A DNA stretch of 64,000 nt from Desulfatibacillum alkenivorans DSM 16219 (lineage in GTDB: Bacteria; Desulfobacterota; Desulfobacteria; Desulfobacterales; Desulfatibacillaceae), in assembly GCF_900142135.1 (NCBI RefSeq), contig NZ_FQZU01000013.1, positions 1 to 64,000 on the forward strand. The letters run 5' to 3'. Both the position numbers and the translations under genes were made by a program. The notes under the pieces were generated by a model. That model had not been told where the DNA came from. It was given only the letters and a program-made list of their open reading frames with translations, and searched no databases. How positions within the stretch are numbered: position 1 is the first letter of the stretch; each line of letters starts with the position of its first letter. Of the stretch, positions 24,285-26,517 are shown piece by piece.

Positions 24285-24769
24285 AAAAAAATAAGCAAAC
24301 ACCTTTTAAACCTGAATTATGCGGCAATCATCTTTTAAAATCCCCTCGTAGACCAGTTCTCCCGCCTTCAAACACGCCTACACCCCATTTTCCCCAAGTA
24401 CCCGCCAAAAGGCCATTTCCACAGATTGGGAGCCTCTGCGTGGGCCGCGCCGCCCGGTTTGGATTGTCTGAAATAGGGCCATGAGCATAACAAGTGCGAA
24501 CCTGATCCACCACGGATAAACCGTTGATGGGCGCCCGACAATGTAGTATTTACAGCCCCTTTACGATTGTGATATTTTTATAAAATCACTCATTCAATTC
24601 CTCCTTCTGATCACTAGCAGAGGAACCAGTTCGATCATCAGGGGGGTATTTCAACTTCTGTAAATCACTCACCTAACAGCATAGCAAAGCTGGGACTCAC
24701 CAGCGGAAATGGCGGATTAAGAGTTGTATTCAATTTTTGCATTGGTGAAATCCAGGAAGGCGCCAAACC
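24285..24769. other. Intergenic region before the selenoprotein genes
   Basis: About 485 bases without a gene that can be supported in any frame, including with UGA read as selenocysteine. Lower GC from 24540 to 24740 is compatible with a promoter, but no clear -35/-10 pair was seen. Confidence 0.35.
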
Positions 24770-25330
24770 ATGAATACATTCACGAAGAACAACCAAGAGC
24801 TGAATATTCAGGGCATAAGCGTGCGAAACCCTGAGGGTGCAGAGGTTGAACTTGCTTCGCTTTGGACGGACCGGCGCATACTGATTGATTTTTTGCGTCA
24901 TTTCGGATGAGTTTTTGCAAAGCAGCAGGTTGCTGCCCTCATGGAAATAAAAGACAGATTGGACGCCGCTAAAACCACCCTTGTTGTCATCGGGAGCGGA
25001 AGCCCGGAGCAGGCAAAGGGGTTTGCCAGCAAGGCAAACTTTCGGGGAGAGATCTATGTGGACCAAAAGCTTGTTTCATACAAGGCATTCGGACTTAATC
25101 GAGGCGTGGGGCGTTCACTCGGCCTGAACTCGATTATAAAGGGTTTCTCTGCCATAAAAAGGGGATTCCGACAAAGCGCCGCAGCTGGGGATCCCTGGCA
25201 ACAAGGAGGTACTTTTGTGCTTGGGCCTGGCGATCAAATACTATTTGAGTACAGGAACGAAAATGCTGGAGATCACGCTGACCTGGAGAAAGTGATTAAA
25301 GCATGTTTGACTCCTTTCAAGGGGGTATAA
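24770..25330 (+). CDS. Selenocysteine-containing peroxiredoxin-like protein (AhpC/TSA-type)
   Basis: Read through a UGA at 24908-24910, this gives 186 residues. The sequence around it is FLRHFG-U47-VFAKQQVAAL. PRXL2/AhpC-TSA_2 proteins have FLRHFGCxFCxxQ here, so Sec replaces the first Cys and Ala replaces the second (a UxxA site). Homology-like sequence continues on both sides (N-terminal domain with LASLWTDRRILIDFL; C-terminal GGTFVLGPGDQILFEYRNE). AGGAAGG precedes the ATG at 24770. A SECIS hairpin follows the UGA. Expected role: thiol- or selenol-dependent reduction of peroxides or related oxidants in the cytosol. Standard calling would start at Met58 and lose the active site. Confidence 0.85.
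24911..24936 (+). promoter_or_regulatory. Bacterial SECIS element (peroxiredoxin-like gene)
   Basis: Directly after the UGA at 24908, eleven bases lead to GCAGC (24922-24926), loop AGGTT (24927-24931) and GCTGC (24932-24936). The loop begins 17 nucleotides from the UGA, as in E. coli fdhF, and carries the AGGU motif bound by SelB. Confidence 0.8.
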
Positions 25331-25465: not shown

Positions 25466-25990
25466 ATGGAAAAATTGGGTGAAAAAAAGTACTGGAGTCC
25501 TTATCTTGCCGGCGCCTGCGCCGGGCTTGTTTTGGTGCTCTCGGTTTGGTTTACCGGTAAATATTTTGGGGCATCGACGTCTTTTGTGAGATCCGTAGGT
25601 TTGCTCGAAAACGCAATCAGCCCCGAGAGAGTGAGCCAAATGGATTACTTTATTAAAACCACCCCCAAGATCGAGTGGCAGTGGATGTTTGTTTTCGGTA
25701 TATTTATTGGTTCCCTGTTAGCTTCCCGTTTGTCCGGAACTTTTAAGATGCAGGCGGTTCCTGAAATGTGGCGGAACCGCTTTGGTCCCCGCATTTCCAC
25801 GAGAGCAATTGTTGCATTCCTCGGCGGCTTAGTAGCTATGTTCGGCGCACGACTGGCTGGCGGCTGACCGTCCGGCCACGGACTGAGCGGTCTGGCTCAG
25901 CTTGCTGTCAGCGGATTCGTTGCGTTGATGTGCTTTTTCGCCGGGGGGATAGTGAGTTCCAACATCTTGTACCGTGGAGGCAAAAAATGA
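25466..25990 (+). CDS. Selenocysteine-containing YeeE/YedE-family transporter, first half
   Basis: Read through UGA at 25865-25867, the product is 174 residues with about four membrane segments. The site reads GARLAGG-U134-PSGHGLSGLAQLAVSG, where YeeE/YedE proteins have the conserved AGGCTSGHGLSG; Sec replaces the Cys. The frame then continues with a good membrane helix (GFVALMCFFAGGIV) to a TGA at 25988 that overlaps the next start as ATGA. In TsuA-type YeeE proteins such Cys residues bind thiosulfate during uptake; sulfur- or selenium-compound import is therefore likely. AGGAGG precedes the ATG. Confidence 0.87.
25868..25900 (+). promoter_or_regulatory. Bacterial SECIS element (YeeE/YedE gene)
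   Basis: After the UGA, CTGAGC (25883-25888) and GCTCAG (25895-25900) form a perfect 6-bp stem with the loop GGTCTG (25889-25894). The GGUC loop starts 21 nucleotides after the UGA, within the functional range, and closely matches the E. coli loop AGGUCU. Confidence 0.85.
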
Positions 25991-26517
25991 CGACTCAGCT
26001 AATCTATGGTTTGGTTACGGGAATTTTGTTCGGCTTTTTTCTGCAAAGGGGGCAAGTGCTGCGATACGATAAGCAGATTGGAGCCTTGCGACTGATGGAC
26101 ATGACCATTTTCAAGTTCATGCTGACGGCGATCCTTGTCGGCAGTGTTGGAATATACCTGCTCAAAGATCTGGGTTTAGTCAAGTTGTCCATCAAGTCAA
26201 CGATCCTGGGAGGAACGATTATCGGGGGCCTGATTTTTGGTTTAGGATGGGGTCTTCTGGGATACTGCCCTGGCACATCCATGGGCGCTGTCGGTGAAGG
26301 CCGTTGGGATGGCATTTGGGGCCTCTTGGGAATGCTGGCAGGCGCCGCGATTTATGCCGAAGCCTATCCTCTGATGAAGCGAACCGTCCTGACCTGGGGG
26401 GACCTTGGCAAAATCACCGTGCCTGGAATATTGGGGATAAGTCACTGGATCGTTATCCCGTTATTCATGCTTGCCGTTGTGGGACTTTTTTTCTGGTTCG
26501 AAAAGAAAAAACTTTAA
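25987..26517 (+). CDS. YeeE/YedE-family transporter, second half
   Basis: A 176-residue membrane protein with four to five segments, the partner half of the preceding Sec-containing protein. It carries GGLIFGLGWGLLGYCPGTSMGAVGEG, the conserved GYCPGT motif with Cys retained. In many bacteria the two halves are fused in a single protein; here they are split and overlap by ATGA. Together they probably form the sulfur-compound channel. Confidence 0.85.
   Translation: MTTQLIYGLVTGILFGFFLQRGQVLRYDKQIGALRLMDMTIFKFMLTAILVGSVGIYLLKDLGLVKLSIKSTILGGTIIGGLIFGLGWGLLGYCPGTSMGAVGEGRWDGIWGLLGMLAGAAIYAEAYPLMKRTVLTWGDLGKITVPGILGISHWIVIPLFMLAVVGLFFWFEKKKL

Follow-up and report, generated by a model that had tools for sequence, protein, structure and literature searches.

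A predicted PRXL2-like selenoprotein with a UxxA site in Desulfatibacillum alkenivorans DSM 16219

The window, the whole stretch of DNA analysed here, comprises the first 64,000 nucleotides of contig NZ_FQZU01000013.1 from the genome of Desulfatibacillum alkenivorans DSM 16219 (assembly GCF_900142135.1). Its forward strand contains a frame at 24770–25330 that begins with an ATG at 24770, carries one internal TGA at 24908–24910 (codon 47) and ends with a stop codon at 25328–25330. A preliminary description of this DNA had placed the TGA at the position of the catalytic Cys of an AhpC/TSA-like frame, and both the coordinates and the site, FLRHFG-U-VFAKQQ, are as it reported. The site thus reads UxxA, and the proposed replacement of the second cysteine by alanine is found at residue 50. 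Ordinary ORF calling was expected to begin past the active site and does so, listing a 129-aa product that starts at the ATG at 24941, which makes this gene an example of a product cut beyond its catalytic residue. Just seven sense codons separate the preceding in-frame stop from the ATG at 24770, leaving no room for an N-terminal signal extension. The features of the locus are as follows:

24754..24760, + strand: likely ribosome binding site AGGAAGG, 9 nt ahead of the ATG, read from the sequence
24770..25330, + strand: predicted selenoprotein gene, an open frame with TGA read as U, encoding a 186-residue AhpC-TSA_2/PRXL2-like (SelL-related) protein with Sec47, Ala50, Trp143 and Cys179
24908..24910, + strand: predicted Sec-encoding TGA, codon 47, from its conservation in the aligned sequences
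24917..24919, + strand: Ala codon (residue 50) at the +3 position of the motif, replacing the second Cys of CxxC/UxxC, from the frame and the aligned codons
24922..24936, + strand: apical SECIS-type hairpin GCAGC-AGGTT-GCTGC, +12 to +26 after the TGA, from pair covariation and codon bias
25196..25210, + strand: WQQGG segment, whose Trp (Trp143) is specific to the UxxA clade
25304..25306, + strand: Cys179 codon, at +132, the sole other Cys and a candidate resolving residue
25466..25990, + strand: next gene, a YeeE/YedE half (PF04143, 90.7 bits) with an in-frame TGA at 25865–25867 (ARLAGGUPSGHGLSG)
25987..26517, + strand: second YeeE/YedE half (PF04143, 58.9 bits), whose start overlaps the end of the gene before it (ATGA)

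Of 389 class genomes searched, 94 contained matches. The aligned codon was read in 93 distinct sequences, made up of 89 class matches with E values of 4e-13 or better, the window's own included, and four phylum-wide sequences. The relatives among the 89 class matches are 23–57% identical to the window protein. Codon 47 is TGA in 92 of the 93, Cys in none and TAA in one, L122, whose sequence fails to align upstream of the Sec site. Relatives with a stop at this position and neither Cys nor Sec, which the preliminary description named as evidence against a selenoprotein, were looked for, and this lone TAA is the one case found. The alignment of L122 ends just before the Sec site, which may reflect truncation of the gene or an error of assembly. 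As the window protein itself was the query, close Sec forms are favoured among the relatives found. Ten remoter class matches (E 1e-6 to 6e-4) have no listed stop in seven cases and one in the other three; the seven are presumably Cys forms. The remote relatives examined mostly have Cys at the site, as CxxC, with UxxC in two cases. A scan of genome contigs for relatives gave one remote match only, and a search of viral contigs, phages and plasmids found none. Within the organism's own family the gene search matches two of nine genomes, and the second match is a remote CxxC protein; among these nine, the gene itself was found in the window's genome alone.

The frame shows protein-type constraint before as well as after the TGA, with most variation at third codon positions (0.36/0.22/0.63 upstream and 0.29/0.25/0.56 downstream), and invariant residues flank the codon on either side in an alignment of the 32-member clade described below. 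If the TGA were a true stop, the locus would be a decaying gene, left with a peptide of 46 residues and, from the ATG at 24941, a remnant of 129. Ordinary calling does list the shorter frame, and the gene is seldom met within the organism's family, as such decay might predict, but the presence of the same TGA in nearly all of the distinct sequences at this level of divergence contradicts the true-stop reading, as do the invariant residues on both sides and the covarying hairpin, and it is considered extremely improbable.

The hairpin starts at 24922, leaving a spacer of 11 nt to the TGA; its loop begins at +17 and carries GG at +18/+19, so that the geometry agrees with the 11-nt spacing and loop distance of about 17 nt originally described. 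Of the 1889 TGA triplets on both strands of the window, 31 (1.6%) are followed at this distance by a stem of five perfect base pairs whose loop contains GG. Among the 29 TGAs preceded by at least 40 and followed by at least 100 open codons, such a hairpin occurs solely at 24908–24910. Compared with dinucleotide shuffles the fold of the window hairpin is unexceptional (z -0.05), and an Rfam scan around the gene gave no meaningful match.

Pair covariation was analysed in 62 of 90 rows; the other 28, which have a UPFx site, were left out because their hairpin sits further downstream. The pair +12/+26 is G-C in 27 sequences and T-A in 33, and is therefore paired in 60 of the 62, compared with 50% after shuffling; the pair +14/+24 is likewise paired in 60 of 62, compared with 89%. 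Because +12 mostly falls on the third base of an Arg codon, and +24 on that of an Ala codon, these changes leave the protein sequence largely unaltered. In the same 62 sequences the pairs +13/+25, +15/+23 and +16/+22 hardly vary and are uninformative, and the outer (+11/+27) and inner (+17/+21) pairs are no better than shuffles. The tree permits just two to three independent pairs, and the covariation is therefore not a formal significance test. Codon choice points in the same direction: GCT encodes the Ala at +8 in 29 of the 32 clade genes but makes up only 78 of the 590 remaining Ala codons of those genes, and a synonymous-recoding control gave a mean folding z of -1.53 for the 32 clade rows and -1.50 for all 90. 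Taken across relatives, the pair covariation and codon bias support the original reading of the hairpin as a bacterial SECIS element, which the single hairpin, weak alone, would not settle. In many of the UPFx rows the predicted hairpin is displaced downstream by about 8–9 nt relative to the UxxA clade and its sister group, which would fit a SECIS that has moved.

The genome also encodes the insertion machinery, selA, selB, selC and selD, whose presence had been put forward for checking. The selA (604.9 bits), selB (384.7 bits) and selD (363.6 bits) products all score above their cut-offs, and the tRNA-Sec scores 76.1 bits and is identified by ARAGORN as tRNA-SeC with the anticodon tca. The selD gene contains one in-frame TGA (G000:C17:74351-75274), from which SelD is probably itself a selenoprotein. 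Since 363 of the 389 class genomes have selA matches anyway, co-occurrence of selA with the gene is uninformative. Among the 30 class genomes with a clade gene, selA was not found in four (three with zero matches, and one judged from its absence in the list), two of which have selB above the cut-off. The conserved TGA, the SECIS-like hairpin and the complete Sec machinery are all in line with the preliminary proposal of Sec at a UxxA site and make it nearly certain, on sequence grounds, that TGA47 encodes selenocysteine.

The membership proposed for the protein in AhpC-TSA_2 (PF13911) is borne out by a score of 75.1 bits against a gathering cut-off of 27, and PF13911 matches all 32 clade members at E 0.01. 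The NCBIfam model NF040769 (SelL-related redox protein) also matches all 32, at E 0.001, and gives the window protein about 106.6–106.7 bits, under the curated cut-off of 120. Three of the eight phylum members above that cut-off were examined, and two have UxxC and one CxxC; unlike these SelL-related proteins, the window protein has no second redox residue and scores below the cut-off. The match to PF00578 (22.8 bits) is under the cut-off of 26. The site motif of classical peroxiredoxins is PxxxTxxC with the peroxidatic Cys, and this motif is absent from the site of the window protein, FLRHFGUVFA. CxxC is the typical motif of AhpC-TSA_2/PRXL2, though it forms no part of the Pfam cut-off, and the window protein departs from it with UxxA. 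Sec47 occupies the first, thioredoxin-like CxxC position, which, as described in a CDD note, is distinct from the one where true peroxiredoxins carry their peroxidatic Cys; "peroxiredoxin-like" therefore names the sequence family, and the activity is only predicted.

The best solved relative, found with a clade profile at E 4.5e-22, is the prostamide/prostaglandin F synthase of PDB entry 9us9 (also 9usa), in which the first Cys of FGCVVCR aligns with Sec47. This enzyme has Cys instead of Sec and, in 9us9, retains the second Cys, where the window protein has Ala. The protein might instead be a selenol enzyme of a different type with the same fold: either an endoperoxide or quinone reductase, as the annotation of this closest relative would suggest, or a reductive dehalogenase resembling iodothyronine deiodinase. 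Deiodinases use Sec on a thioredoxin fold, and the review PMC13188914 lists a deiodinase-like bacterial family. However, neither the Pfam nor the PDB searches returned deiodinase matches and the neighbouring genes are variable and give no substrate hint, and an enzyme of either kind is judged unlikely.

Relationships were analysed in a tree that combined 90 Sec proteins with six outgroup rows and was built by a quick method with the motif columns omitted and with SH-aLRT values rather than bootstrap. L122, with its TAA and unaligned upstream part, and two fragments shorter than 130 residues were removed beforehand. The window protein belongs to a clade of 32 (SH-aLRT 99), of which 30 members are UxxA, one is UxxS (L153) and one UxxC (L085). 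That Sec is constant among the 90 rows follows from the removal of any row lacking TGA; before filtering, the figure was 92 of 93. On the best tree, the fourth motif position of the 90 rows must have switched between Cys and not Cys seven times or more; for the UxxC label with the outgroup rows counted, the starred branches alone force five. With TGA in 91 of 92 relatives and the neighbouring Cys dropped several times, the family lends itself to asking what a selenol can achieve alone. Seven proteins outside the main clade keep the TGA and have the second Cys replaced by Ala or Ser. No Cys form of the UxxA clade was met in the genomes searched.

Trp143, which precedes Gln-Gln-Gly-Gly, is found in 32 of 32 clade rows and in none of the remaining 58 Sec rows, one being gapped at this column. 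It is present in the UxxC member L085 and absent from the seven outside rows without the second Cys, and it therefore marks descent, with no demonstrated tie to the Cys loss. A link between Trp143 and the loss of the second Cys is unsupported outside the clade.

When the core domain is counted from the ATG nearest to 45 codons upstream of the TGA, 19 of the 32 clade members contain no Cys at all, which makes a cycle with one selenol likely. The lone selenol of the preliminary description thus holds for these 19 core domains; it does not hold strictly for the window protein, which retains Cys179 at the +132 position, as do seven other clade members. This residue, in the C-terminal part, would permit a two-residue cycle: after the initial reaction of Sec47, resolution would come from Cys179 of the same chain or of the partner chain in a dimer. 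A distant Cys acts as the resolving residue in 2-Cys peroxiredoxins, and Cys179 is the only other Cys available in the window protein. It is, however, absent from the other 24 clade members, and among the 88 proteins of 150 residues or more Cys at +132 is unassociated with loss of the motif Cys (9/38 versus 7/50, Fisher p 0.27), so that it was rejected as a replacement for the lost residue. The single-sequence AlphaFold model, computed with three extra residues before Met, has a mean pLDDT of 43 and yields no usable distance between Sec47 and Cys179. Resolution by Cys179 is regarded as rather unlikely.

A one-selenol peroxidase cycle is the best overall explanation for the window protein, with a probability of roughly 0.6. 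UGA47 would be read as selenocysteine by SelB and tRNA-Sec, using the hairpin just downstream. The Sec selenolate would then attack peroxide or a similar oxidant to yield a selenenic acid, which could be reduced back to the selenol by an external thiol (thioredoxin, a small thiol or sulfide, for example); in the window protein and the seven clade members that share its Cys179, this residue might resolve instead. The use of a single selenol is somewhat more likely than not, and the chances for peroxide as the substrate are about even.

In roughly 12 of the 32 clade genes an upstream in-frame start is followed by a hydrophobic stretch, in most cases with a lipobox-like Cys; five of these were flagged by a simple pattern and the remainder by eye. 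The 12 proteins with apparent N-terminal signal peptides include the UxxS form L153, and their sequences suggest that they are exported selenoprotein lipoproteins. A start chosen near the domain misses these signal peptides.

The proposed cycle resembles that of glutathione peroxidases (PF00255), whose motif UxxT has one peroxidatic Sec or Cys in the first position and Thr rather than Cys in the fourth. These enzymes place a Trp and an amide beside the Sec. A profile comparison of the clade with glutathione peroxidases (hhalign) aligned Sec47 with their Cys and Ala50 with their Thr, at a non-significant probability of 0.4% and without reaching the Trp143 region; homology by profile was accordingly rejected. 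Neither the window protein nor the window's genome has a match to PF00255. The presence of Sec in every clade member read, the discarded second Cys, the clade-specific Trp-Gln-Gln, the lack of any Cys form among the genomes searched and the several apparent periplasmic lipoproteins could together mean that a one-selenol peroxidase of the glutathione peroxidase type arose independently on the PRXL2 fold. This is a tentative and somewhat doubtful reading, and the placement of Trp-Gln-Gln beside the active site, which forms part of it, is equally tentative.

A 2026 review (PMC13188914) tabulates 119 prokaryotic selenoprotein families or subfamilies. Its table, in the part available, contains a peroxiredoxin-like (AhpC/TSA) family of type cd02970 with the motif UxxS, for which it credits Zhang and Gladyshev 2007 (Olavius algarvensis Delta 1), and the accessible text of PMC9312934 lists a peroxiredoxin-like selenoprotein as pfam13911, also UxxS. 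The catalogued family belongs, like the clade, to PF13911, and has Sec at the first motif position and no second Cys; the UxxS form L153 falls inside the 32-member clade, whereas the window protein is UxxA. Compared by description, the 2007 family and the UxxA clade are likely the same. The UxxA motif is not found in the available parts of PMC13188914 (its family table included), PMC9312934 and PMC12013277, and is absent among the matches listed by a full-text literature search. As UxxS is already catalogued and a different motif defines a distinct subfamily by the rule given in the available text of PMC13188914, the window protein is best described as a motif variant of a known family, whose one-selenium UxxA form and its spread are undescribed in the portions of the literature examined. 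The same review, in the sections available, notes that the Cys counterparts of selenoproteins are usually far commoner, so that the reason for keeping Sec is hard to state.

The gene that follows at 25466–25990 is a second predicted selenoprotein. Among 30 YeeE/YedE loci, the window's included, the codon corresponding to 25865–25867 is TGA in 24 and Cys in six. Its GUxSG motif is that of a YeeE/YedE thiosulfate transporter selenoprotein already catalogued in the available part of PMC13188914, a family separate from the PRXL2-like protein. No conserved neighbourhood was seen in flanks of up to about 5 kb, YeeE/YedE genes occurring at one other locus only (L121), and the largest group shared among 142 neighbouring ORFs from 26 loci consists of nine signalling proteins. 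A functional link to YeeE/YedE was dropped, as the adjacency is not conserved in the loci compared. A class III cytochrome c is also encoded within the window.
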